Positions 39,040 to 50,825 of a DNA stretch of 64,000 nt are shown here, one piece after another (the stretch's first letter is position 1; each line of letters begins with the position of its first letter). Origin of the DNA: Gammaproteobacteria bacterium (GTDB lineage Bacteria; Pseudomonadota; Gammaproteobacteria; Steroidobacterales; XN24); contig JAHEFR010000010.1 of NCBI GenBank assembly GCA_024640085.1, forward strand, positions 1 through 64,000. The letters run 5' to 3'. Below the pieces are notes generated by a model. It had not been told where the DNA came from. It worked only from the letters and a program-made list of their open reading frames with translations, and made no database searches. Made by a program: the position numbers and the translations under genes.

Positions 39040-40611
39040 CTACGGGCTCTCCGTCCCTGAACCCTCGAAAGTGTCGCTCAACGCCTTGATCAGTGCCGCG
39101 TCCGCGCTATCTCCCGAGAGTTCCCAGGACATGACACCCCGCAGCCCCATATCCTCCACGTAGTCGGCCTTGACGCTCAGTGAGGTCGCGTCATCGAAGC
39201 TCCAGAACTCGCTGCCGTCGAAGGTCCACGCCGCCGAGCCGTCTATTTCGTGGAAAACCGGGTCGCCACTCCCGGCAAGGACCTCATAGTCTTCGGTACC
39301 CTTTTCATAGGTGCCGCGGGGGATGCCGCGTGCCGGCTGGCACAGGCCGTAGTCGACCGTCGCGACCCCGCGCCATCCATGACCGTAGAAGGGGACTCCA
39401 AGTACGAGTTTGTCGCCGGGGAAGCCGGCCGCCAGATAGTCTCTGACGGCCTTGTCGCCGTAATCGGCGGTGTCCTCGGGATCGCATGCGGAACGATAGA
39501 GCGGGGCGTGGTGATTCGCCGGCCCGGAAGTCTCCCACCCGCCGTGAATGTCGTATGCCATGATGTTGGCCCAGTCCAGCGACCCATGGATCCGGTCGAG
39601 TTCCAGTGCCTGATAGTAATATTGTCCCGCCGGCGCCGCGATGGAGAGCAGGTACTGCGGCCGGTGCCCCGTCGAGCTCTCGATGTCGGTCTCCAACTCG
39701 TCCAACGCCGCGCGGAATTCCTCCAGCAGTGCCGTGAAGTTCTGAGGGTCATCCTCACTGTAATCACACGTGGCACCGCAACGCCCCGGATATTCCCAAT
39801 CGATGTCGATGCCGTCGAAGACACCGCTGGCGTCCACGCCGTCGGCCACGTTTCCACGCATGAACATATCGACACAGGAACCGATAAAGGCAGCGCGGCT
39901 TTCCGATGTGGCGGCCATCCCGGAGAAGCGGTAGGACTCGGACCAACCGCCGATGCTGATCATCACGCGCAGCCTCGGGTACATGGTCTTGAGCTTCCGC
40001 AGCTGGTTGAAATTACCTTTGAGCGCCTGGGAAGACGCATCGGCGACTCCATCGACCGTCTCGCTGGCGTCGAAGGCCTTGTTGTAGTCGGCGAAGCTGT
40101 CGAGGATGGTGCAACGGAGGTTTTCGTCGATACCGGCGAAGGCGTAGTTGATGACATCGAGCCGTTCTGCCGCCCCGCTTGCGACGATGTCCCCCGGGTA
40201 ATAGGCGCGCCGGTAGACGCTCCAGCTGGTGTAATAGCTGATCAGCATGCCGTGGGTTGGCAGCGCCGGCCGTTCGGCGCCGTTGCCACCCCCGCCCCCG
40301 CCCGGATCGCCACCGTGTCCTTCCGCGACGAACACGGCCGTGATCTGCTGGTCGTCGGAGATTCGCAGGATCGTCGGATTGTCGTCACCCGACAGGTCAC
40401 CTTCCCAGTGGTCGAAGACGCTGCCCTCGCCGGCGGCGGCGGTCACATTGACGATGTTGTTGCGCTTGTAGGGCCCCGAAGGATCCAGGGTCACGGTTCC
40501 GTCACCCACCGTCGTGACATCGATCGTGAATGTCGGTGGACCGGCGTTCACAGATTGCGCAAGCGCCAGCATCAGCGATAGCAGGGCAATCCGGGTGGTG
40601 AGTGTCATCAT
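39040..40611 (-). CDS. Secreted GH18 chitinase with N-terminal InlB-like repeat domain
   Basis: A 523-residue exported enzyme. Signal peptide to about residue 23 (ALAQSVNA). Residues 27-96 form a beta domain of the InlB B-repeat type (DVTTVGDGTVTLDPSG ... FDHWEGDLSG). A Gly-rich linker follows (100-110), then a GH18 barrel (120-515). The catalytic motif DGIDIDWEYP sits at 266-275, with E273 as the acid, and SIGGWSESYRFS supplies the second conserved region. It should cleave chitin or chitooligosaccharides outside the cell. ATG 40611 has GAGGAGG upstream. Confidence 0.93.
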   Translation of the reverse strand: MMTLTTRIALLSLMLALAQSVNAGPPTFTIDVTTVGDGTVTLDPSGPYKRNNIVNVTAAAGEGSVFDHWEGDLSGDDNPTILRISDDQQITAVFVAEGHGGDPGGGGGGNGAERPALPTHGMLISYYTSWSVYRRAYYPGDIVASGAAERLDVINYAFAGIDENLRCTILDSFADYNKAFDASETVDGVADASSQALKGNFNQLRKLKTMYPRLRVMISIGGWSESYRFSGMAATSESRAAFIGSCVDMFMRGNVADGVDASGVFDGIDIDWEYPGRCGATCDYSEDDPQNFTALLEEFRAALDELETDIESSTGHRPQYLLSIAAPAGQYYYQALELDRIHGSLDWANIMAYDIHGGWETSGPANHHAPLYRSACDPEDTADYGDKAVRDYLAAGFPGDKLVLGVPFYGHGWRGVATVDYGLCQPARGIPRGTYEKGTEDYEVLAGSGDPVFHEIDGSAAWTFDGSEFWSFDDATSLSVKADYVEDMGLRGVMSWELSGDSADAALIKALSDTFEGSGTESP

Positions 40612-40853
40612 TTCCCGCCCCCTCCTCGTTGTCGTATCCGGGCAATGCAAGTCTAGAAAGGTCTGCCCCGTTTGCCACGCGCACCGTCGGCTGATGGGGG
40701 ATGTCCGTCTTTACACCAGGTGACTTGATGTATAAAAAATATTGTAAAGTTAATTACTTATACCTGTGATTTAATTTAACTTATTATATACACGTCTTAG
40801 GGCGGCGCTGTCTTCCAGCACCTCCAACTTCGGGCAGCCTGACGGGGCCCGGC
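40612..40853. other. AT-rich spacer upstream of the chitinase gene
   Basis: The stretch 40727-40795 is strikingly AT-rich for this genome and lies 120-190 bases before the chitinase start. It may hold an UP element or promoter for the chitinase gene, or serve as the end of the prsW unit. No hairpin with a T-tract is clear. Confidence 0.4.
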
Positions 40854-41867
40854 CTACTGTTCGCCAAGCATGTAGAGCTGCCACATGTCGCGCGAACTCA
40901 TGCGCAGGAACGGCTTGACCGCACGGTGGCCCGTGCGACCGATGCTTTGTTCCAGGTAGCGAAGCTCTTCCAGCATGGCCTTGACCTCTTCATCGGGCTC
41001 GACCTCGAAGCCGCTCTCCCTGAGCATCAGCATGCCGGTCGAGCGCATCGACAACTCGGTGTGGAGGCGCAGGTAGCACATCATGTCGAACAGCACTTCA
41101 GGCTTGAAGTGATCGCGGATGGATTCCAGGTAGCGGCCGACCTTCGAGTCGGAGAAATCGCCCGAGTTGATCAGTTCCAGCAGTTCGGTGTCGGCGTCGA
41201 AGTCGATGGCAAGCCATTTCCTGAGGGACGCCTCGCTGTGCTGGAAGACAAAGAGCAGCAAAGGGGGCAGCAGGATCAGGATGCCAAGAGTCGAGAGCAC
41301 CGGCGCGAAGAGGAAGTGGTTGAACGCCGAATGCACTGCCGAGGCGACGACGAAGCCCGGCAGGAGCACGGCGATACCCGTAGACTGCTTCTCCTCGGCT
41401 AGCGTGTGGGCCACGATGCCGAAGATAGCGGTGGCGCCGCCGTGCATGATGGCGGTGCCGAACCCTCGCACCACCCAAACGGCGATGTGCGATTCCCGCA
41501 TCACGCCCAGATAGTAAAGGTTCTCGATCATCGCAAAGCCTGTACCGGCGGCGAATCCGAATATGGCCGCGTCCACCGGGAACCCGATCCTGTTCTTCCG
41601 GATAAGGTAGACCAGGATGACGCCCTTCAACGCCTCCTCGATCAGTGGCGACACGTAGCGCGAATAACTGGTGACGGGCATGCCTGTCAGGCCCAGGGCC
41701 AGATCGTTCGCGAAGTAACTGGCCGCGGCGGACAGCCCCCCCGCCGCGATCGCGATCAGGACCGCGCGGAGACGGACCAGCTTGTAGCTGTCGAGATAGA
41801 CGAGCACGCCCAGGAATACCAGGACAGGGAGCAGACCGACCGAGCCCCTGAGCAGCAGCTCAACCAT
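40854..41867 (-). CDS. PrsW-family intramembrane protease
   Basis: A 337-residue polytopic membrane protein. PrsW motifs are present: EE at residues 77-78 in LIEEALKG, MIEN with E115, H142 in MHGGAT, and H179/H184 in VHSAFNH. About seven helices cover residues 5-215, then a soluble C-terminal tail (215-337) that is longer than in Bacillus PrsW. In Bacillus, PrsW makes the first cut in the anti-sigma factor RsiW. Here the gene is the last of nine co-directional genes that include an ECF sigma/anti-sigma pair, so the anti-sigma factor is a candidate substrate. It starts 36 bases after the preceding gene. Confidence 0.85.
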   Translation of the reverse strand: MVELLLRGSVGLLPVLVFLGVLVYLDSYKLVRLRAVLIAIAAGGLSAAASYFANDLALGLTGMPVTSYSRYVSPLIEEALKGVILVYLIRKNRIGFPVDAAIFGFAAGTGFAMIENLYYLGVMRESHIAVWVVRGFGTAIMHGGATAIFGIVAHTLAEEKQSTGIAVLLPGFVVASAVHSAFNHFLFAPVLSTLGILILLPPLLLFVFQHSEASLRKWLAIDFDADTELLELINSGDFSDSKVGRYLESIRDHFKPEVLFDMMCYLRLHTELSMRSTGMLMLRESGFEVEPDEEVKAMLEELRYLEQSIGRTGHRAVKPFLRMSSRDMWQLYMLGEQ

Positions 41868-41903
41868 GCTGGTGGTTCGTTGGCGGGGCGATCGTTGCGG
41901 GCC

Positions 41904-44858
41904 TCAGAGGATCTTGAGCGAGGCCATGAACTCGTCCCGCTCATAGCTGCTGGAGTCGAACCCTGCTGCATAGCCGACGGAGAACGTCATGTCCATGCGG
42001 GAGAGGATCGTGAAGCGAAAATCGACCTGGGTGCCGAGGCTGTAATAGGTGTCGCTCTCGTCGTCCGGGTTAGTCACCAGCGCTGCGGCGAAGATGGCCG
42101 GGCGCGCCCAGGAAAAGAAGAAATTGGGAGTGCCCGCGCGTTCGAAGCGCAGCGGCGGCAGATTCCACTCCAGCATGGAGCGGGCGAAGGTACGGCCATT
42201 CAGGTCGTCGATGCCGAATCCAGGCAACGAGAAGGGATCCCGGTAGCGTTGCACGGCCTGATGATCCACGTAGTTGTTGCCGTATCCACCGAAGTAGTAA
42301 TTCGAGAATTCCTCGTCCTTGTCGCCTACGGCGAAACCGCCGGCACTACGCAACCAGATCGACGAATGGTGCAGGGGCAGCGCCCACCCGTAATCGAACT
42401 TGCCGTAGCTGTATGGAGTGATGGATTCATTGGCATAATTGCTGCCGGCGATGGCTGACCACTTGTATCCCTTCTCGTCATCCACCGCGCCGAGGGACTT
42501 GCGGACAGAGCTGAAGTCCAGCCGGGCGCTGGCATTGGCGAAACTGTCGAAAGTGGTGTCGACATCCTGGGCATAGGGCAATTCGTCAAAATCGGCGAAA
42601 TAGCCACCTTTGACGGTCAGGTCCATCTTGCGCGGGTCATCAGAGATTATCGGACGCTTATAGGTGAGTTCGCCCGAGTAGCCTTTTCTGCTGACCTTCG
42701 TGGGCCCGAATATGTCGTAGAAATCCGCGTAGTTGTATTTCAGCTCGGTGGTCCAGGATCCGGGCAGAAGCTGGTCCAGCCGCTGGTACTGCTGCTTGAT
42801 GTAGAAGTGTGCTTGCTCGCTTGGCTGCTGGTTCGGCGTGACCGAGCCGGTCACGGTGATCCGGTTGAAGCCGATGTTGTCGCTGAACTTGGCATTCAGG
42901 CCGGCACCGATGGAACTTTTGTAACCCTCGACGACGGGGTAGATCGATTCGAGGCTCATGTTCTGCCAGGGCTTGTAGTCGCGGTCGGCGACGATCAGGG
43001 CGTCCAGGTCGACGTCCCCCGGCGAACCGACTTTCCATTCGCGGACGGCTGGGTATTTGTCGGCGATCAGGGTACCCAGGAATGTGGTCGAGCTGACATC
43101 CTCGATCGGCGCCCCTTCGATGCGGGTGGGAACGAAACCCTGCCCGGTGTAACGGAACACGATCAGCGAGCCGTCCGCCAAGGGCACCGGGCGGAACAAG
43201 CCTACCTCGGCATTGCTGAGCGCCTCGATCTCACCCGTGTCGATCTGGTAGCGGAAAATATTCGACACCCCCGTGTAGTAGGAGCTACCGATCAGGTACC
43301 TGCCGTCGGTGGAGAATACGAACCCCTCGGGCATGGCCTGGCCGAAGTCGAACGATTTGTACGGGGTCACGTCATCGGCCAGCAGGGACTCGATCCTGTA
43401 GATGCGGCAGGATTGCTGGCCGTTGATCTCGCCGAAAGAGGTGGAGAGCAGCGTGCCGTCCGGCGAAATGTCCATGTCATAAAGGACCTGGCCATAGGGG
43501 AAGCTGTGGATCTGTTTCCAATCCGTGTACGGGTAGGGAATGTGGACGAGGGTAACGATGCCATTCAGGTGCCGCACTCCCCATAACGACCGGTCGGCGG
43601 GGTTGAATACGAGTTCGCCGATCCGGGCGTCTTTGAGCAGTGTATGGGTCTCTCCCGTCTGGACGTCCAGGGAGACCAGATCCCGGTAGTTGTAGTTATC
43701 CGTCGTGTAAAAGAGGGTCTTCTCCCTCGGATCGAAGGCGAGAGACGTCACCTTGTAGAGCATCGGGCCCTTGATGTCCTCGAGACGCCTCACTGAGCCG
43801 TCCTCGGTCGAAATGGCGGCGATGTGGGCCACGATCCCCGGATAGCGGATGCCCGCGTAGAGGTCGCCCGTGTCCGGGTCCAGGTAAGCCCGGGAAACGG
43901 ATCCCAGCGCCCTGGCGGTGACGTCCTGATTTGGCGTCACAGGGAACTGCCTGATCGCTGCCAGGTTCTTGTCCTGGAACTCGTGTTCCCAGGCGATCCA
44001 TTCCTGCCAGGCCTGGTCAAGTTCCTTGCCGTAGACCTGCTTGAACTGTCTGGAGTACATGCGCTCGCTGCCCTTCAGCCGCTGTACCCATTCGATTACC
44101 TTCTCCGGCGACTCCGTGTAGGCCATGTAACTCATGAACCGGGTGCCGTAAAGGTAGGCGTTGGCGCCGACCTGGAAATCGACTTTGATCCCTTCGGCCA
44201 CCAGGCCCAGGGGATCGTAGAAATGGGCGTCGTCCCTGACCATGCCCCGGAAGACCATCTCGTCATATCCGCCCTGCGCCCGGCCGAGGCCGCCGGCCAT
44301 CCAGGTTTCCACGAACACCGCGATGCCCTCCAGGTACCAGCGCGGACTCGTCTTCCGGGGTGTCGTCAGATACTGGTAGAGGATGGTCTCCGGATGATCG
44401 GGGACCGCGAGGACCTTGCCGCCGAACAGTTTCCTGTAAAACAGGTCGGGTGGTGCTGCCTGGTCCGTGGTGACGACGTGGACCATCTCGTGGTTCATGA
44501 TGGTAAACAGGCGCTCCGCCGGTGCCGAGGTCTCGAAGGTAAACGGCAGTGGCGCGATATCTACGAACAGGCTGTTGCGGGGCAGGGAGTTGGCGGCCGC
44601 GTTCCCGTAATCGGTGAAATCAGTCAGGAGGACCGTGGGCCGCTCGTACGGCGTGTAGTCGAAGATCTCCTTCTGCTTCCGGAACGAGTTCTCGAAACTC
44701 CTGGCCGCGTGAGGCACGATGTAGGTCTGCACCGGATCGAAGTAGATCAGCTGCATGTCCTCGGTTTCGAGCGACTTGAGTTCCGCGTGGCCTTGTGCGG
44801 CAACCACAGACGTCAGGATCAAGCTGGCGACAGCCCGCCACAGGATTGTTGAGCGCAT
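41904..44858 (-). CDS. Outer-membrane protein: zinc peptidase, beta-propeller and beta-barrel fusion
   Basis: A 984-residue protein. The signal peptide ends near residue 25. A peptidase MA-like domain carries HEMVH at 123-127 and a downstream WYLEG glutamate at 177. About 280-620 is a TolB/WD40-like beta-propeller (repeated LYAGIRYPG, LFYTTDNYNY, YLIGSSYYTG strands). About 650-984 is a beta-barrel of BamA/surface-antigen type, rich in aromatic strands and ending at a short MASLKIL strand. The enzyme would face the periplasm and the barrel sits in the outer membrane; the function is not known. It follows the nonapeptide-repeat gene after a hairpin. Confidence 0.8.
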   Translation of the reverse strand: MRSTILWRAVASLILTSVVAAQGHAELKSLETEDMQLIYFDPVQTYIVPHAARSFENSFRKQKEIFDYTPYERPTVLLTDFTDYGNAAANSLPRNSLFVDIAPLPFTFETSAPAERLFTIMNHEMVHVVTTDQAAPPDLFYRKLFGGKVLAVPDHPETILYQYLTTPRKTSPRWYLEGIAVFVETWMAGGLGRAQGGYDEMVFRGMVRDDAHFYDPLGLVAEGIKVDFQVGANAYLYGTRFMSYMAYTESPEKVIEWVQRLKGSERMYSRQFKQVYGKELDQAWQEWIAWEHEFQDKNLAAIRQFPVTPNQDVTARALGSVSRAYLDPDTGDLYAGIRYPGIVAHIAAISTEDGSVRRLEDIKGPMLYKVTSLAFDPREKTLFYTTDNYNYRDLVSLDVQTGETHTLLKDARIGELVFNPADRSLWGVRHLNGIVTLVHIPYPYTDWKQIHSFPYGQVLYDMDISPDGTLLSTSFGEINGQQSCRIYRIESLLADDVTPYKSFDFGQAMPEGFVFSTDGRYLIGSSYYTGVSNIFRYQIDTGEIEALSNAEVGLFRPVPLADGSLIVFRYTGQGFVPTRIEGAPIEDVSSTTFLGTLIADKYPAVREWKVGSPGDVDLDALIVADRDYKPWQNMSLESIYPVVEGYKSSIGAGLNAKFSDNIGFNRITVTGSVTPNQQPSEQAHFYIKQQYQRLDQLLPGSWTTELKYNYADFYDIFGPTKVSRKGYSGELTYKRPIISDDPRKMDLTVKGGYFADFDELPYAQDVDTTFDSFANASARLDFSSVRKSLGAVDDEKGYKWSAIAGSNYANESITPYSYGKFDYGWALPLHHSSIWLRSAGGFAVGDKDEEFSNYYFGGYGNNYVDHQAVQRYRDPFSLPGFGIDDLNGRTFARSMLEWNLPPLRFERAGTPNFFFSWARPAIFAAALVTNPDDESDTYYSLGTQVDFRFTILSRMDMTFSVGYAAGFDSSSYERDEFMASLKIL

Positions 44859-44891
44859 GATGTTTCTTCTTTTACCGACCCCCCCAATGAA

Positions 44892-44928
44892 GAAGAGGAT
44901 ACAACGGATTTCCCGTCGTATCCTCTTC
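44892..44928. terminator. Perfect hairpin between the repeat gene and the outer-membrane protein gene
   Basis: GAAGAGGATAC at 44892-44902 pairs exactly with GTATCCTCTTC at 44918-44928 around a 15-base loop. In the minus-strand transcript it lies about 100 bases after the repeat-gene stop and 34 bases before the next ATG. On that strand no U-tract follows, so it may be an mRNA-processing or attenuation structure rather than a simple terminator. Confidence 0.45.
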
Positions 44929-45028
44929 CCGTGTTTTCCACGTTGTCCCGGGTGCGTTCCCGATTCCCCTCACTGACTCTAGGTTGATAAGCCCTGGTCA
45001 GACCGGTGATCGCCCCCGGCGTGGATAT

Positions 45029-46477
45029 TTAACGCGTCCTCAACGCCTCGCTGCTCAGTGCCTCGCTGCGCAGATTCTCCCGGAAAGCTTCGCTGTTCAG
45101 CGCCTCGCGGAAGGCTTCGCTGCTCAGCGCCTCGCGGAAGGCTTCGCTGCTCATGGCCTCTCGCAGAGCCTCGCTCCGCAGTGCTTCGCGCAGGGCTTCG
45201 CTGTTCAGCGCCTCACGCAGGGCCTCGCTGTTGAAGGCTTCGCGGACGGCTTCGCTGTTCAGCGCCTCACGCAGGGCCTCGCTGTTGAAGGCTTCGCGAA
45301 CTGCTTCGCTCCGCAGGGCTTCGCGCAGGGCCTCGCTGTTCAGCGCCTCGCGGACCGCTTCGCTGCGCATGGCTTCGCGGACGGCCTCGCTCTTGAAGGC
45401 TTCGCGGACGGCCTCGCTGTTGAAGGCTTCGCGAACCGCTTCGCTGTTGAAGGCTTCGCGGACGGCCTCACTCTTGAAGGCTTCGCGGACGGCCTCACTC
45501 TTGAAGGCTTCGCGCACGGCTTCGCTGTTGAAGGCTTCCCGAACGGCTTCGCTGCGCATGGCTTCGCGCAGGGCTTCGCTGCTCAGGGCCTCCCGGACAG
45601 CTTCGCTCTTCAGCGCTTCGCGCATGGCTTCGCTGTTGAGGGCCTCGCGCAGCGCCTCATTGTTGAGGGCTTCGCGAGCTGCCTCGCTGCGCATCGCCTC
45701 ACGCATCTGCTCGCTGGCCAGGGCCTCGCGCACCGCTTCGCTCTTCAGGGCTTCGCGGACGGCTTCACTGTTGAAGGCCTCGCGGACGGCTTCGCTGTTG
45801 AAGGCCTCGCGGACGGCTTCGCTGTTGAGGGCCTCTTTCAGCGCCTCGTTATTGAAGGCCTCACGCACGGCCTCGCTGTTCAGCGCCTCGCGTGCGGCTT
45901 CGCTGTTCAGAGCTTCCCGAACGGCCTCACTGTTCAGCGCCTCGCGGACGGCCTCGCTACGCAGCGCTTCCTGGAGGGCCTCGGACCGGACCGCCTCGCG
46001 GACCGCTTCGCTGTTGAAGGCTTCCCGAACCGCTTCGCTGCGCATCGCCTCTCGCACGGCCTCGCTACGCATTGCTTCGCGGAGCTGCTCGCTGGCCAGG
46101 GCCTCGCGCAGGGCTTCGCTGTTCAATGCCTCGCGGAAGGCCTCGCTGTTCAGCGCCTCGCGGAAGGCTTCGTTGTTCAGCGCCTCGCGGAAGGCTTCGC
46201 TGCTCAGGGCCTCGCGAAGTGCCTCGTCTGTCGTCAGCTGGGTAAACAGGTCGGTCTGCATGAACTGCTGAACGGACTGGTCCCCTAGCTTGACGTCGTC
46301 GGACCCGATTTGTTCGGCCCGATAACGCGCGGCTGGAGCGATTGTGCCCGCAGCCTGCTCGTCCATCGGCGGGTAGTGGCTCGAGACGTAGCCGATCACG
46401 GCAACAACTGCCACCAGCACGGCGGCGATGCCCCAGGTCTTCTTGCTACTCGAGGGATTCTGTTGATGGCCTGCCAT
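45029..46477 (-). CDS. Membrane-anchored protein with 43 tandem nonapeptide repeats
   Basis: A 482-residue protein. The N-terminus is short and basic (SSSKKT), followed by one transmembrane helix (about residues 15-35, WGIAAVLVAVVAVIGYVSS). About 50 residues of linker precede 43 uninterrupted nine-residue repeats with consensus x-S-E-A-V/L/F-R-E-A-L/F/M. Glu3, Arg6, Glu7 and Ala8 are nearly invariant. A degenerate final unit closes the protein. Orientation by the positive-inside rule puts the repeats in the periplasm. The start at 46477 is preferred since GGGAG stands before it; an ATG 15 bases upstream is possible. It follows the anti-sigma gene. Family not recognised. Confidence 0.8.
   Translation of the reverse strand: MAGHQQNPSSSKKTWGIAAVLVAVVAVIGYVSSHYPPMDEQAAGTIAPAARYRAEQIGSDDVKLGDQSVQQFMQTDLFTQLTTDEALREALSSEAFREALNNEAFREALNSEAFREALNSEALREALASEQLREAMRSEAVREAMRSEAVREAFNSEAVREAVRSEALQEALRSEAVREALNSEAVREALNSEAAREALNSEAVREAFNNEALKEALNSEAVREAFNSEAVREAFNSEAVREALKSEAVREALASEQMREAMRSEAAREALNNEALREALNSEAMREALKSEAVREALSSEALREAMRSEAVREAFNSEAVREAFKSEAVREAFKSEAVREAFNSEAVREAFNSEAVREAFKSEAVREAMRSEAVREALNSEALREALRSEAVREAFNSEALREALNSEAVREAFNSEALREALNSEALREALRSEALREAMSSEAFREALSSEAFREALNSEAFRENLRSEALSSEALRTR
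45071..46231 (-). repeat. 27-bp tandem coding repeat, 43 units
   Basis: Exactly 1161 bases, or 43 units of 27 bases, each encoding one nonapeptide. Units differ by synonymous and conservative changes but never by length. The rare variant unit ASEQ(L/M)REAM occurs at units 6 and 20, and its DNA string CTGCTCGCTGGCCA recurs at 45707 and 46085, exactly 378 bases (14 units) apart, indicating a later segmental duplication. Confidence 0.95.
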
Positions 46478-46568
46478 CGCTCTCTCTCCCATTTACGCCC
46501 AGATCAATCGGGCTTTCGTGTTTACGTACTTACAATACCGGCATGGCACGAAAAAGTTGGTGCCGCCG

Positions 46569-47357
46569 TCAATTCCGGCCCTTCGCCGGTACTTCCAGAG
46601 CATCCTCGTGGATCAGCTTTCCGTCCGCGAGGAACTGGAATTCGATTGTGCCGTTCCCCTGTCCCGAGGGACTGAAGAACACCGCGTATCTATGTGCGTC
46701 CTGCTGGGTGAACCTGACCCGTCCCTGGTCGGCTTCGACGGAAGCGCTGGCCTCCTCGAACTGGGCAAAGCCGCTGAAGCTGAGTCCAGACTGGCCGTAA
46801 TCTGCAATTATTTCAACTGGTTCTGCCGCCGACAGGTTGAAATCGACGACCACGAGACCGTTCTGCACGGAGGTGCCGACCGACCCTGTAATGGCGGCCG
46901 TATCCAGTGCAATGCGCCCGGTGGCGGCACCCGGCGCCCGGTAGCTGGTCATGGTGCCGACGAGACTGCCCGGGTCTGCCGGGCCGTGGCTATCGAGGTC
47001 GCCGACCTTCAGGCCGACCGCGACGATGGCTGCGCCAAAGGCGGCGGCTGCGCCGTAACGGAGCAATGCCGGCGCCGGCCAGCCAGGGAGGATGGATGCC
47101 AGGATGCTGCGGCGCGGTTTCACGATACGCCGTGTGAATTGCGGGGCTGCAGCGGCGATGATTCTTGACCGCAATCCCGGCGGGGGATCCTCGGATTCGA
47201 CCCGGCCGAGCACATCGTGGAGCTTGCGCATGTCATCCCGCAGCGCCCCCAGCGAGGCATCGCTCTCCAGGCAGGCGTGCAGTTCTTGCTGGTCCTCGGC
47301 GGAGATCTCACCGTCGAGATCAGCGTGGATCAGTTCGATTGATCTTTCATGGTTCAT
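46569..47357 (-). CDS. Membrane anti-sigma factor
   Basis: A 262-residue protein. The N-terminal cytosolic region (1-45, SIELIHADLDGEISAEDQQELHACLESD) has the RseA/zinc-finger-like anti-sigma helix arrangement with His and Cys. One transmembrane segment lies at about 97-118 (LLRYGAAAAFGAAIVAVGL), and a beta-rich periplasmic domain at 130-262. It starts one base after the ECF sigma stop (TGA-A-ATG), so the two are co-translated. It should hold the sigma factor inactive until cleaved or displaced; PrsW at the end of the block is a candidate protease. Confidence 0.85.
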   Translation of the reverse strand: MNHERSIELIHADLDGEISAEDQQELHACLESDASLGALRDDMRKLHDVLGRVESEDPPPGLRSRIIAAAAPQFTRRIVKPRRSILASILPGWPAPALLRYGAAAAFGAAIVAVGLKVGDLDSHGPADPGSLVGTMTSYRAPGAATGRIALDTAAITGSVGTSVQNGLVVVDFNLSAAEPVEIIADYGQSGLSFSGFAQFEEASASVEADQGRVRFTQQDAHRYAVFFSPSGQGNGTIEFQFLADGKLIHEDALEVPAKGRN

Positions 47358-47358
47358 T

Positions 47359-47898
47359 TCAGAACAATCCCGTGTCTGCCAGCCGGTCCTTCAGGAGCTG
47401 GCGGGCGGTGAAAAGTCGCGACTTGACTGTCTTCTCGGGGATATCGAGGATGCTGCTGATCTCCCGGTACGTGCAATCCATGAAATGCTTGAGCACGATC
47501 ACCGTCCGATAATCCGCCGAGACTGTCATGAGAGCTTCCTGCATCGTGGCGCTGAGCTGGGATTGTCGGATGGCGCTTTCCGGCGTGTCCCAGGTCGGCA
47601 TACGACTCTCGTCGAGTTCCGTGGTCCGCTTCCGCCGGTTGAGCACGTCGATGGATTCATTGATCACGATCCGATAGATCCAGCTGTAAAACCTGTAATC
47701 CGGGTTGTATGTGTCCAGCCTCTCGAAAACCTTTAGGAAGGCTGTCTGAGTCACATCCGCCGCATCGTCCCTGTCTCCGAGCATCCTCAGCGCCGCGTTG
47801 AAGACCGGTTTCTCGTATTTTCCTACCAGGACTCCGAAGGCGTTCTCGTCGCCGTTTCGACAGTCCTCCACCAGTTTCGCGTCGGCGTCTATATGCAT
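47359..47898 (-). CDS. ECF-family RNA polymerase sigma factor (sigma-70, RpoE-like)
   Basis: A 179-residue sigma factor with region 2 (DDAADVTQTAFLKVFERLDTY, then FYSWIYRIVINESID) and region 4 (YREISSILDIPEKTVKSRLF). Length is normal for ECF sigmas. MHIDADAKL at 47898 is a better start than the extension to 47919. It is directly followed by its anti-sigma gene and preceded by STAS, kinase and phosphatase genes on the same strand, an arrangement that ties it to a partner switch. Target promoters are unknown. Confidence 0.93.
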   Translation of the reverse strand: MHIDADAKLVEDCRNGDENAFGVLVGKYEKPVFNAALRMLGDRDDAADVTQTAFLKVFERLDTYNPDYRFYSWIYRIVINESIDVLNRRKRTTELDESRMPTWDTPESAIRQSQLSATMQEALMTVSADYRTVIVLKHFMDCTYREISSILDIPEKTVKSRLFTARQLLKDRLADTGLF

Positions 47899-47963
47899 AA
47901 CTACCGCCGATCCGGGCAAAGGTTGGTGAAAACGGTGAAATTTGTCATCAGTCCGCGGGGCGC

Positions 47964-48260
47964 TTATCCGGTGGAGACCTCGACTTCGAAAATGTGATCG
48001 AACCCGGAGTACCTGAAAATGTTGTGGATATGAGGATTGACGTTGGTCAGCTTGAGCTTGCCGCCGCCGGACATCAGTCGCTTCTGAGTCCGCAGCAGCA
48101 CGCCCAGTCCTGCCGAGGAGATATATTCCAGGCCGCCGCAGTCCATCACCGCCAGGCCTTCTATGCTGTCCAGGAATGCCTGGGCCTTCTCCGTCTGCGC
48201 CGCGTCCAGGCGGCCGGCGATGATCACGATTCCCTGATCTCCGATCCCGATCTCGAACAT
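47964..48260 (-). CDS. STAS-domain anti-sigma factor antagonist (RsbV/SpoIIAA-like)
   Basis: A 98-residue single STAS domain. The phosphorylation loop reads LEYISSAGLGVLL; S49 aligns with the regulatory Ser of RsbV. When dephosphorylated, such proteins bind and sequester the RsbW-type kinase. It starts four bases after the kinase gene, and a PP2C phosphatase gene lies upstream, completing the three-protein switch. Confidence 0.92.
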   Translation of the reverse strand: MFEIGIGDQGIVIIAGRLDAAQTEKAQAFLDSIEGLAVMDCGGLEYISSAGLGVLLRTQKRLMSGGGKLKLTNVNPHIHNIFRYSGFDHIFEVEVSTG

Positions 48261-48264
48261 GGCC

Positions 48265-48666
48265 TTACCTCAGATTCTTGCTGAACTTGATGGTGGTGCA
48301 ACCGTCGACGTGCTGGTAATCGATTGAGTCGACGACTTTCTTGGTCAAATGGAGGCCGAGACCGCCTGGCTCGCGTTCCTCGATTGGGCGGTGAATGTCG
48401 ACCGGCGGACTGCGGGTGACGTCGAAGGGCTGTGCGTCGGAGTCGACCAGGCTGATCAGAAGACTGCCGTCCACCCGCTCGATCTGGAGCCGGATGTCCG
48501 ATTTGCCAGTGGAGTTGTACTTCACCATGTTAGTGAACAACTCCTCGACCGCGAAATTGACGTCGTGCCGATGTGCCGGGCCGACCGATTCGGCTTCGAA
48601 AAACGACTCTGTGAACGCGAAGATATCCGCCAATGAGTCGAATGATCTCTTGAAGCTTTTCTGCAT
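48265..48666 (-). CDS. RsbW-like serine kinase/anti-sigma regulatory factor
   Basis: A 133-residue HATPase_c_2 (GHKL) protein. The N-box is seen in FAVEELFTNMVKYNS, a G1-like VDSDAQPFD and a G2 GGLGLHLTKKVVD. It would phosphorylate the STAS protein and may bind a regulatory target. MQKSFKRSFDSLADI is the normal beginning of this family; a GTG at 48708 preceded by a strong GGGGGAGG is an alternative and open frame continues to 48843. Some 220 bases separate it from the phosphatase gene. Confidence 0.85.
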   Translation of the reverse strand: MQKSFKRSFDSLADIFAFTESFFEAESVGPAHRHDVNFAVEELFTNMVKYNSTGKSDIRLQIERVDGSLLISLVDSDAQPFDVTRSPPVDIHRPIEEREPGGLGLHLTKKVVDSIDYQHVDGCTTIKFSKNLR

Positions 48667-48884
48667 TCGACCGCCGGCCCGGACCGGGCCATCCCGTTTC
48701 GGGCTCACGCCTCCCCCTTTGGCGCCCCCGTGTTCCGTGTGCTGCAATGCGGCTCTACGGTCGCTGTTAGCACTACCGGCTGCGCGGGCACCGTGCCTGA
48801 CCAGTGAGCAGTATACGCGAGCAAGGCCCATGCGCCACGGCAAACGGGCCCTGTTGCACTGAAATGGTGCGCTAACTCCGGGTT

Positions 48885-50153
48885 CTAGTCAGGGAGCCTT
48901 CGGATAATGACGATAGTGATGTCGTCGGCCTGAACGACCTCGCCTCCGAACTCTCTGACGGACCTCAGCAGGATCTCCACGAGCTCGGTGGTCGGCTTGT
49001 CATGGTGCCCGCGGATAACGGCCGCCACGCCGTCTTCGCCAAACTGCTGGCCGGCGGCATTTTCGTACTCGTACACGCCATCGGAAATCAGCGCCAGGAC
49101 GTCGCCCGGGTCCATCTCGATCCGCTGGGCCGTCTTCAGGCTCCCCTGTTCCATAGCGCCCATGGGGAAGGTGGTGGCTCCGTACCAGATGCACTCGTCA
49201 TGGCTGGCCCGGAAGTGGAGCAAAGGTCCCTGCCCGCCGGCGTGGAAACGCACGTCGTTGGTACGAGCGTTCAGAATGCCGACAAAGGCGGTGACGAAGC
49301 GGTCATCCGGAAGATCCTCGACCAGCTGGTTGTTCGAGTGAGCATAGATTTCGTCGAGACTGGCGCCGAGCCTCAGCCCAAGCCGCATCATCGCCCGGAC
49401 CTGGGTGGCGCTGAGCGCCGGACCGATGCCATGACCGGTGGCGTCACCCATGAGCAGGAACAGGCGCTCGTCCTCCAGGCGGACGAAATCGAACAGGTCG
49501 CCGCCGGTTTCGTCGGCGGGCCTGAATTTCCCGGCGCCATCGTAGCCCTCGATATGGGGCATCCGCTTGGGCAACGCGCTCATCTGGATCTCACGGGCCA
49601 CGTTGATCTCTTGCTTGGTGCGTTCCCGGTTCATCAGCTCCTGGGTCAGCTTTACCCGGTGCAGGGCCACGGCGCATTGGGCGGCGAGGGCAGCGGCAAC
49701 GCGTTCATCGTTGTCGTCGAAAATTCCGCCTTTCTTGTTCAGCAGTTGCAGGACGCCGACCAGGGAGGCGTCGTAGCCGATCAACGGCAAGGTAAGCATG
49801 CAGCGGGTCTTGTAACCGGACTTCTTGTCAAATGACGGATCGAAGCGTTCGTCCGCGTAACAGTCAGGAACATTGATGATTGCGCGGGTCTGGGCGCATT
49901 GCCCGGCGATGCCGCGGGTCGCCGGGAAACGGATCGGTTCCATTCCGGTAGCAACTGTCAGCATCAACTCGTCCGTTTCCTCGTCGTAGAGGTACACCGT
50001 ACCCCTGTCCGCATGGAGCACGTTGCGACCCGCGTCGATCACCTCGGTCAGCATCCGGCTCAGATCGTATGGTGCTGCCAGCTTCTGGGTAACCTCGAGG
50101 ATCTGCTCGAGCGTCTCGGTCCGTAGCTGCTGCTTCTTCGCCGGTGCTTTCAT
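48885..50153 (-). CDS. GAF domain-SpoIIE-type PP2C serine phosphatase
   Basis: A 422-residue cytosolic protein. An N-terminal helix and GAF domain (about 20-175, with DRGTVYLYDEETDEL and GIAGQCAQT) leads into a linker helix (NREREKT-like) and a PP2C domain (about 200-420). Metal-ligand Asp residues appear in ETGGDLFDFV, LMGDATGHGIG, LISDGVYEYE and QADDITIV. It should dephosphorylate the STAS protein in response to a signal sensed by GAF, releasing the partner switch. Starts 15 bases after the cyclase-like gene. Confidence 0.92.
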   Translation of the reverse strand: MKAPAKKQQLRTETLEQILEVTQKLAAPYDLSRMLTEVIDAGRNVLHADRGTVYLYDEETDELMLTVATGMEPIRFPATRGIAGQCAQTRAIINVPDCYADERFDPSFDKKSGYKTRCMLTLPLIGYDASLVGVLQLLNKKGGIFDDNDERVAAALAAQCAVALHRVKLTQELMNRERTKQEINVAREIQMSALPKRMPHIEGYDGAGKFRPADETGGDLFDFVRLEDERLFLLMGDATGHGIGPALSATQVRAMMRLGLRLGASLDEIYAHSNNQLVEDLPDDRFVTAFVGILNARTNDVRFHAGGQGPLLHFRASHDECIWYGATTFPMGAMEQGSLKTAQRIEMDPGDVLALISDGVYEYENAAGQQFGEDGVAAVIRGHHDKPTTELVEILLRSVREFGGEVVQADDITIVIIRRLPD

Positions 50154-50168
50154 GGTCTTGTTCCCGGG

Positions 50169-50825
50169 TCAGCTATCGCGGATCGCCATGTCCAGGCATA
50201 CGAAGTCTATGTCGATACCGGATATGCGTTCGCGCCTCTTGTCCGCCTCGCGGTCAATCTGGCCGGTGACCTTCTCCATTGCCCGCTGGGTGATGAGGAT
50301 CTCGCTGCGGGCCGCCAGGTCCTCACCCAGTTTCGACGCCGTGTTTACGGGGTCCCCGAAATACTCGACTTCTCCAATCAGGAGAAGTTTGCCCCAATCG
50401 ATGCCGATGGATATGTATGCCCTGTCGGCGCTGTTGCGAGTCTCGTTCTGGCGGGATAGTTCCTGGTTGATCTCGATGGCCGCCGCGATCGCTCCGTCAA
50501 CGTCGGGGAAGAACGCGTAGCAATTGTCCGTCTCGGCCTTTAGCAGGATTCCGCCATGATCGCCCACCGCTCGAGCCACTACCGGTCGGACGCGATAGAT
50601 CAGGGCGAGGAAATGGCAGATTCCAAGGGCGCGGGTAGTGCGCGAGAACCCTGACATGTCGCTGATAAAGACAGCGCCCTCGGTGCCGAACTGCTGCCAG
50701 ATTTCGTCATCGATCCTGGCTCTGTCGGCCACGTCCTGGCTTGCGGAAAACCGGGCGAGGACAGCATCGAACTCCTCCTCGGAATCGGCATGCTGCGCGT
50801 CCGGGTTCGCTGGTTTCCTGGCCAC
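50169..50825 (-). CDS. Class III nucleotide cyclase-like protein
   Basis: A 218-residue protein with a single cyclase homology domain (about 48-200). The metal-binding Asp residues are in VFISDMSGFSR and AETDNCYAFF. VEYFGDPVNTASKLGEDL matches the substrate/transition-state helix, but the usual Arg of VNxAAR is Lys, so activity is doubtful. The GTG start at 50825 has AGGGGGACTC upstream. It is the first gene of the block that continues with the PP2C phosphatase 15 bases later, so it may feed a signal into the partner switch. Confidence 0.82.
   Translation of the reverse strand: MARKPANPDAQHADSEEEFDAVLARFSASQDVADRARIDDEIWQQFGTEGAVFISDMSGFSRTTRALGICHFLALIYRVRPVVARAVGDHGGILLKAETDNCYAFFPDVDGAIAAAIEINQELSRQNETRNSADRAYISIGIDWGKLLLIGEVEYFGDPVNTASKLGEDLAARSEILITQRAMEKVTGQIDREADKRRERISGIDIDFVCLDMAIRDS

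Follow-up and report, generated by a model that had tools for sequence, protein, structure and literature searches.

What joins nine neighbouring genes that combine a cytoplasmic phosphorylation switch, a sigma factor with a membrane-bound antagonist, two envelope proteins and an intramembrane protease? The question is raised by positions 40,854–50,825 of a 64,000-nucleotide stretch of DNA (hereafter the window; contig JAHEFR010000010.1 of assembly GCA_024640085.1, positions 1 to 64,000) from a gammaproteobacterium of the order Steroidobacterales, whose assembled genome comprises 3.19 Mb in 73 contigs and is 95.8% complete. The association of these genes is firm. We hypothesize, giving this about an even chance of being right, that the block is a co-inherited envelope-response module: a Gram-negative system resembling SigW/RsiW/PrsW, equipped with an outer-membrane peptidase-barrel and with a decoy that shares a short tag with the anti-sigma factor. 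Which protease acts, how the decoy would work and what the partner switch does are the parts that we infer.

The block is filled by nine minus-strand genes. An original prediction, made from the window sequence, had recognized nine consecutive genes with short gaps, and all nine lie where it had placed them; the gaps measure 15, 218, 4, 65, 1, 91, 170 and 36 nucleotides (nt), assuming ATG starts at 48666, 47898 and 46477. The leading cyclase is missing from its title. Genes are transcribed in the order class III cyclase-like protein, GAF-PP2C phosphatase, RsbW-like kinase, STAS protein, extracytoplasmic function (ECF) sigma factor, membrane anti-sigma factor, repeat protein, peptidase-propeller-barrel protein and PrsW. 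A terminator scan found no terminator-like site between the nine genes; the single minus-strand site lies inside the barrel gene, and the 5 sites on both strands compare with 7.5 expected by chance. The features are as follows (aa, amino acids; TM, transmembrane segment; AF2, AlphaFold2):

50169..50825, minus: class III nucleotidyl-cyclase-like protein, 218 aa (PDB matches 3mr7 and Ma1120; 13-row alignment)
48885..50153, minus: GAF and SpoIIE-type PP2C phosphatase with NKx4Fx3DE in the GAF domain (Pfam, PDB matches, motif table)
48265..48666, minus: RsbW-like HATPase kinase, 133 aa from the ATG (HATPase_c_2, 8.5e-18)
47964..48260, minus: STAS anti-anti-sigma-like protein, LEYISSAGLG (Pfam; TIGR00377 above cut-off)
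47902..47926, minus: putative ECF-type promoter P1, CCAACCTTTGCCCGGATCGGCGGTA, 3 nt ahead of the sigma ATG (pattern and matrix searches)
47359..47898, minus: ECF sigma factor, SigW/RpoE/SigH-like, 179 aa (Pfam, NCBIfam, PDB profile)
46569..47357, minus: membrane anti-sigma factor with RsiW-like N-terminus and one TM (profile match to RsiW; hydropathy scan)
46947..46964, minus: juxtamembrane tag of the anti-sigma factor, LVGTMT (column conservation of the ectodomain)
46536..46560, minus: putative ECF-type promoter P2, CCAACTTTTTCGTGCCATGCCGGTA, ahead of the repeat gene (pattern and matrix searches)
45029..46477, minus: repeat ("tether") protein with N-in TM, tag and nine-residue, SEAVREALN-like repeats (open reading frame, repeat and hydropathy scans; the reading frame is listed from 46492, and the ATG at 46477 was taken as start)
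46322..46351, minus: juxtamembrane tag AGTIAPAARY of the repeat protein (alignment of 19 rows)
45068..46231, minus: nine-residue repeat region, period 8–10 across loci (periods counted by eye; AF2 confidence low)
41904..44858, minus: predicted outer-membrane protein with signal peptide, HExxH peptidase-like domain, TolB-like propeller and Omp85/BamA-like barrel (Pfam, PDB/Foldseek; signal peptide by eye)
44478..44492, minus: HEMVH zinc-peptidase motif; YLEGIAVF, some 50 residues further along, offers a candidate Glu ligand (motif invariant in the A1 alignment)
40854..41867, minus: PrsW-family intramembrane protease with a conserved C-terminal domain (PF13367)

Using the window proteins as queries, we compared 56 loci around barrel homologues. 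Twenty-four distinct related loci share the order PP2C-RsbW-STAS-sigma-(anti-sigma)-repeat-barrel, with protein identities of 25–69%, and in 19 of them PrsW comes next. This recurrence makes the block more than a chance adjacency, an explanation that we rejected. Queries with three flanking genes (GH18-like, spermidine-synthase-like and PLD-like) gave no match in the 56 loci. A class III cyclase-like gene leads the block in 14 of 26 loci. Locus L043 is the same as L021 and was dropped from most counts, and L061, in which the gene set includes a diverged PP2C and a second STAS gene, stands outside the 24; the anti-sigma genes of L055 and L072 were missed by a single-sequence search and recovered by a profile. 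Four of the five order-keeping loci lacking PrsW end inside or near the barrel gene, the fifth being L036. Apart from the variant loci described below, all others owe their missing upstream genes to a contig end, in several cases inside the repeat gene. In the genus-mate genome G001 the two halves lie about 158 kb apart, with breaks inside the anti-sigma and repeat genes; both edges are 100-N scaffold gaps, and we therefore rejected this genome as a refutation of the linkage.

Barrel homologues occur in 46 of the 296 genomes of the order (47 counting one spurious 40-residue match) and the anti-sigma family in 44, the two together in 40; four anti-sigma genomes have no barrel match and six barrel genomes have no anti-sigma match. 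One bipartition (families f16, f5 and part of f7 versus the rest) was recovered in all seven gene trees with support of 0.86–1.0. It had been picked on the PP2C tree with f11 left out, and with f10 added it appears in six of the seven trees (not that of the barrel). Its recovery in all seven indicates that the module is inherited, and perhaps also moved, as a unit. Gene order, co-occurrence and congruent trees thus bear out the prediction that these genes belong together; the homologous neighbourhoods, with their shared order in 24 loci, do not show the subgroups scattered over separate loci.

Family f7 contains two diverged versions of the whole module (L055–L057, L070 and L074 versus L034, L036 and L072), suggesting transfer or ancient duplication of the entire block. 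All seven gene trees place one version with other families. Genome G279 holds pieces of both (L041 and L056); with 6% contamination, it is possibly a mixture.

In a sample of the class, 27 of 274 genomes gave a barrel match: the source genome itself, two of its order, G300, and 23 genomes with relatives at 22–28% identity. The barrel of G300, from another order, is 54% identical and has PrsW adjoining, and 13 neighbourhoods of the 23 distant relatives contain no adjoining sigma or PrsW gene, with one weak sigma match about 8 kb off. An N-terminal profile of the repeat protein matched 1 of 398 genomes of a phylum sample, the source genome. Variant gene sets also exist. Family f11, with 12 loci, has several, and in it L060 and L061 have a different, membrane-linked PP2C type and two STAS genes. 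Barrels lack an adjoining PrsW in L038, L064 and L069; L068 stops at a contig edge, and L067 has a barrel-PrsW pair with no sigma match. Two metagenome-assembled genomes, Proteobacteria bacterium SZAS-9 and SZAS-34 (L022 and L024), carry a tag-bearing repeat gene and a barrel, L022 also PrsW.

The second line of evidence is a short sequence tag. Intact repeat proteins, predicted to be inner-membrane proteins with fast-evolving repeats, start with a short tail in the cytoplasm, followed by a single TM and a tag of the type [VAT]GT[IVL]xxAxRY; after the tag come repeats of 8–10, mostly nine, residues. Repeat sequences are wholly different between loci (SEAVREALN, DGRFAELMA, DQNFQAALG, NADFARALG, GGNKGLDGQ), and the longer proteins span 194–521 aa; the tag, which can be written [VA]GT[IVM]APAxRY, is retained. 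Within the tag, G49, T50, A54 and R56 are invariant in 19 rows. The anti-sigma ectodomain has a single invariant column, G134 (26/26), and T135 (25/26) is the most informative one; both lie just past the TM. A strict tag, [VATI]GT[IVML][AS][PED] at most 30 residues past the TM, is present in 18/28 anti-sigma factors and 26/30 repeat proteins. It was found past 3 of 789 other TM segments, all from module genes (the repeat protein of the window itself and two anti-sigma factors missed by the filter). For the looser [VATI]GT[IVML][AST] the counts were 25/28, 28/30 and 8/789, respectively. TM cut-offs were 1.4 for module proteins and 1.6 for the background, and truncated repeat proteins were left out of this count and of the profile comparison. 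The latter aligned anti-sigma and repeat protein with P ~1e-4 and a probability of 58, a match that is suggestive of homology and not proof of it. We regard the tag-sharing link between the two proteins as new and, as a sequence-based prediction, fairly well supported; the same short tag in both suggests that they may compete for one partner. An AF2 model of the repeat protein, with one short helix per repeat, was set aside as evidence because its predicted local distance difference test score (pLDDT) is 39.

The tag also outlives the TM form of the protein. In 7 of the 12 f11 loci the repeat slot is occupied by one to several small Ala-rich lipoproteins with the tag about 10–15 residues past the lipobox Cys; these stand ahead of barrels, and L060 and L061 have TM forms. 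Tandem arrays of at least three similar tag lipoproteins precede an f11 barrel at L064:5330-7330 and L065:8350-9150 (oriented coordinates). In L069 the tag reads GTIVQTKR, missed by the regular expression and seen by inspection. The idea that the tag merely tracks PrsW neighbours was set aside, though only tentatively: tag proteins precede barrels without an adjoining PrsW (L064 twice, L069), yet those genomes hold one PrsW elsewhere. No tag protein was found in L038, L066 (0.4 kb upstream available) and L068. L038 and L068 are also the two loci whose barrels lack HExxH, a sample of two in which the L068 result covers 1.4 kb of upstream sequence. L023 shows no tag in 0.9 kb upstream, and in L026, L030, L045 and L059 none is seen because their repeat genes are cut off at the start. 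HExxH is not seen in L053 and L054, whose barrel N-termini are incomplete, and L020, L043, L071 and L073 were left out of the HExxH/tag table.

The barrel protein itself carries HExxH with a downstream EG.AxF, then a predicted propeller and a predicted Omp85-type barrel. Members of the Omp85 superfamily have a 16-strand barrel with an Omp85 signature. The C-terminal part of the protein matches Omp85_2 (2.9e-5; 24 bits versus a cut-off of 23.1), and Foldseek with a weak AF2 model (mean pLDDT 50) gave separate matches to BamA/TamA/FhaC barrels and to TolB. Identification of the barrel in the PDB at the sequence level was not achieved, the best match being a propeller (2ojh, 1.2e-4). PF00149 gave no match in this protein.

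The sigma factor contains regions r2 (Pfam, 4.6e-16) and r4 (r4_2, 2.4e-13) only, and its PDB profile matches are SigH, SigW and RpoE. The adjoining gene encodes a single-TM protein whose best PDB profile match is RsiW (5wuq_C, 1e-6); the NCBIfam anti-sigma match (1.7e-8) is below cut-off. Zinc anti-sigma (ZAS) domains are marked by the motif Hx3Cx2C. The window protein has one Cys, the motif is found in 0/27 other rows, and zf-HC2 (E=0.077) stays below cut-off. PrsW (PF13367, 7.6e-20) is the only family match in this genome; E77, E78, E115, H142 and H179 are invariant in 25 rows, the Glu-Glu, Glu and His residues presumably being catalytic. It scores 31 bits against the Bacillus-type equivalog NF033739, whose cut-off is 225. 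Past the Pfam domain, PrsW proteins of this group carry another conserved domain, some 130 residues long, at the C-terminus (window 40857-41250). PrsW is the site-1 protease of RsiW (PMC3482391, excerpt), and its location beside an RsiW-like anti-sigma factor points to regulated proteolysis of the latter, by analogy with that system.

Which genes does the sigma factor control? Dyad counting recovered CAAC-N16-TGTA ahead of the sigma gene in 13 of 30 loci and, ahead of the repeat gene, CCAA-N18-GTAC and AACT-N15-GGTA in 8 of 30 each (shuffled maximum 4). The resulting ECF-type consensus, CCAACTTTT-N13-GTA, stands ahead of sigma in 30/30 loci sampled. Where CAAC[CT]T alone was used to choose the sites, 29 of 30 carry GTA at the fixed distance and the remaining one carries ATA. 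As GTA lies 3 nt ahead of the chosen start codon in 25/30 rows and in the window, the sigma mRNA probably starts at the AUG or immediately behind it. We rejected Shine-Dalgarno counts as proof of such a leaderless mRNA: similar letters precede 4/30 sigma starts, and also only 3/45 PrsW starts. These counts being uninformative, the argument comes from promoter position.

A matrix match precedes the repeat gene in 16/30 loci and the barrel gene in 1/52 (weak); none was found ahead of the cyclase (0/13), PP2C (0/24), RsbW (0/26), STAS (0/29), anti-sigma (0/27) or PrsW (0/45) genes. A strict pattern gave 28 matches in 18 module genomes, 22 of them ahead of a sigma or repeat gene, one just after PrsW and five elsewhere; there were no matches in six genomes without the barrel, and a reversed control gave five over all 24 genomes. 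With a promoter before sigma and often before the repeat gene, the sigma factor most likely drives itself and the envelope proteins. Autoregulation is a well-supported prediction, and repeat-barrel-PrsW is likely an output. Of the two roles originally proposed for the envelope proteins, output or sensor, the first is favoured by the promoter before the repeat gene, with barrel and PrsW probably carried along, and the shared tag suggests that they also act back on the sigma factor.

A few promoter matches fall outside the block. One lies at G000:C51:889-1367 (L136), 34 nt before a gene for a 140-aa small membrane protein with no Pfam match, followed by a similar 144-aa protein; it is a possible extra sigma target or a chance match. 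A GAF protein stands under the module promoter in G021 and G275 (L102 and L121), a possible link to the GAF-PP2C signal, and a sigma54-activator-like protein under the promoter pattern in G039; close homologues of the GAF protein in G261 and G037 have no promoter. A broad regulon was rejected given the few matches outside the locus and the GAF-protein link not kept in G261 and G037; with so few matches elsewhere, the sigma factor seems, by its predicted sites, mostly devoted to its own locus.

The genes upstream of P1 encode a predicted cytoplasmic arm. Class III cyclases use two metal-binding Asp residues, Lys, Asn and Arg. The cyclase-like protein has no Pfam match and resembles class III cyclases in the PDB (3mr7, 1.2e-8); the two Asp, Lys and Asn are kept, and the usual Arg is Lys in all 13 rows (VNTASKL), with the site roles being our presumption. 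The phosphatase contains GAF (3.2e-17) and SpoIIE-type PP2C (1.9e-38) domains with kept metal sites. The best PDB matches of its GAF domain are 1ykd, an adenylate cyclase (1.3e-32), and PDE2A (2.4e-24), and it carries NKx4Fx3DE, which we take to be the signature of cyclic-nucleotide GAF domains. This GAF is thus assigned to the cyclic-nucleotide type, with binding predicted. The RsbW-like kinase keeps EE[LI]FxN and GG[LM]G in 26/26 rows, and the STAS protein (Pfam, 1.2e-11) has S[AS]GL in the window and 28/28 other rows. The GAF likeness and the kept PP2C, STAS and kinase sites make a chain from cyclase through cyclic nucleotide, GAF-PP2C and STAS to RsbW plausible.

NKx4Fx3DE is kept in 14/14 loci with the cyclase, and NK is lost in 10/12 without it. 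On the PP2C tree the presence of the cyclase changes just once, which makes this link statistically weak; L027, on a long branch, has lost NK separately from the other clade. A strict link was rejected on that ground and because two f10 loci keep NK without a cyclase. The contigs of L057 and L074 end just before PP2C, and a cyclase search at E 1e-5 found none in the corresponding genomes, G177 and G231.

Combining these results, we propose the following mechanism. The RsiW-like membrane anti-sigma factor would hold the sigma factor. Its tag (VGTMA), matching AGTIAPAxRY of the repeat protein, may be read by a module protease, either the zinc-peptidase domain of the barrel or PrsW. The repeat protein, or the tag lipoproteins in f11, would occupy this protease and spare the anti-sigma factor; an envelope change or a shortage of repeat protein would lead to its cleavage, completed by PrsW and a site-2 protease. 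The freed sigma factor would then produce more repeat protein, barrel and PrsW, closing a homeostatic loop. In the cytoplasm, a cyclase product sensed by the GAF domain could make PP2C dephosphorylate the STAS protein and thereby switch RsbW, an arm that probably tunes the same response. A more specific version, speculative and in our view unlikely to hold in full, has the anti-sigma factor compete for the barrel zinc-peptidase, which hands on to PrsW, with a membrane protein or lipoprotein that bears the same proteolytic tag and is made in abundance under sigma control. The sigma factor would read decoy supply, a cyclic-nucleotide-gated Ser switch would set the gain, and the repeats would be a length spacer selected for period and length and not for sequence.

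Several observations weigh against the proposed module. In L036 the 1.5 kb beyond the barrel contain no PrsW gene, nor was one matched anywhere in that genome (G056, 82% complete). The f11 loci L037, L063 and L065 contain sigma, anti-sigma and barrel-PrsW without a partner switch, which is therefore not needed for the rest of the module. Upstream of the repeat genes in L022 and L024 there is no sigma or anti-sigma gene in 2.0 and 5.6 kb, respectively, and no promoter match. A looser promoter pattern in the source genome gave four matches, two in this block, versus three in the reversed control. The tag lies 8–19 residues past the TM in anti-sigma and repeat proteins, and that of f11 lipoproteins sits near a (presumably outer-membrane) lipid; given this differing geometry, it is not obvious that a single protease reaches all tag proteins. 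All six f11 barrel genomes checked have exactly one PrsW each, which keeps PrsW a candidate tag reader. Finally, the shared tag could be a binding or export signal.

The last point leads to other explanations of the tag. It could be a docking site, for the barrel propeller or for export or anchoring, so that tag proteins are bound and not cut and the barrel mechanically reports periplasm width or outer-membrane state via the repeat protein. TolB-like propellers bind peptides, the barrel constantly accompanies tag proteins, and repeats that vary in sequence and length while the slot is kept are what a spacer would show. We nevertheless consider docking quite unlikely, since the absence of a tag protein at 2/2 barrels without HExxH favours cleavage, and the confidence of the repeat-protein model is too low to call a rod. 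Alternatively, a plain SigW-type system may be at work, with PrsW alone sensing stress and cutting the anti-sigma factor, the repeat protein and barrel being mere regulon products that repair the envelope; the tag would then be coincidental or a general feature of membrane exit. The RsiW-like and SigW-like pair, the invariant PrsW residues and the promoter ahead of the repeat gene would all fit. Against it, the tag is far rarer past other TM segments, is conserved in both ectodomains and persists even in f11 lipoproteins, and the two barrels lacking HExxH also lack an upstream tag protein. We regard this explanation as doubtful.

A different challenge concerns the two halves of the block, which may be independent modules: cyclase, PP2C, RsbW and STAS would control another target (an enzyme or another sigma factor), and the unit from sigma to PrsW would be adjacent through joint inheritance. 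We find this a serious possibility, while leaning against it. P1 lies between the halves, the sigma half exists without the switch in the three f11 loci named above, and classical RsbW binds non-ECF sigma factors. The fixed STAS-then-sigma order in 24 loci argues for a functional link, as do the congruent trees, although joint descent alone would give these. In two-hybrid assays, an RsbW homologue of Rhodobacter capsulatus did not interact with the sigma factors tested, which included two of the ECF type, and partner switches can have targets other than sigma factors (PMC3999984, excerpt). The originally proposed convergence of a Ser-phosphorylation switch and membrane proteolysis on one ECF sigma factor is partly supported. 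PrsW and the RsiW-like anti-sigma factor point to the proteolytic input; action of the Ser switch on this sigma factor is conjectural, and the partner-switch genes lack the sigma promoter and are missing from L037, L063 and L065.

The envelope-response module that we favour resembles several known systems in part. With SigW-RsiW-PrsW of Bacillus subtilis it shares an ECF sigma factor, a single-TM anti-sigma factor with an RsiW-like N-terminus and a PrsW-family protease; it differs in its Gram-negative setting, the linked outer-membrane peptidase-barrel, tag-sharing repeat protein and partner switch, and in a PrsW that is remote from the Bacillus equivalog and bears a C-terminal domain. Escherichia coli sigmaE-RseA-DegS likewise relays envelope state through proteolysis of a membrane anti-sigma factor. 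The block, in contrast, has no DegS or RseB gene, its candidate proteases are PrsW and the barrel peptidase, and few promoter matches lie outside the locus. RsbU/RsbW/RsbV-type switches, as well as SiaA-type phosphatases and RbaVWY, have PP2C, HATPase kinase and STAS with conserved Ser in common with the cytoplasmic arm, which here adjoins an ECF sigma gene with its own membrane anti-sigma factor, is often led by a cyclase and has a cyclic-nucleotide-type GAF input. RbaVW of Rhodobacter, unlike this block, has no sigma gene nearby (PMC3999984, excerpt). Partner-switch control of an ECF sigma factor is named in a review for EcfG/PhyR/NepR of the alphaproteobacterial general stress response (PMC8999054, excerpt); that system uses a response-regulator sigma mimic, whereas the block has a kinase/STAS set and a membrane anti-sigma factor. 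A TolB-like propeller fused to an Omp85 barrel (WD40-Omp85) and an Omp85 group called metalloprotease, with domain PF00149, are both described, and the excerpt describes no fusion of an HExxH domain, propeller and one barrel (PMC4104836, excerpt). Here, unlike in these groups, a single barrel follows an HExxH domain and a propeller and is linked to an anti-sigma module. In agreement with the original prediction, which knew the combination from no described pathway, we found no description of it in open-licence papers.

If the proposal is true, a PrsW/RsiW-type pathway operates in a Gram-negative bacterium, where an outer-membrane peptidase is a candidate reader of the envelope, and two classic routes of sigma release, membrane proteolysis and a Ser-phosphorylation partner switch, are joined in one inherited unit. 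In the speculative version above, tag competition would be a new sensing principle in which a sigma factor reads the available decoy. The shared tag makes this mechanism directly testable by point mutations, and promoter motif and tag together offer precise handles for finding more members.

Directly downstream of the block, at window positions 39040-40650, lies a gene whose product, named by eye, is a putative GH18 chitinase with a repeat-like domain at its N-terminus.

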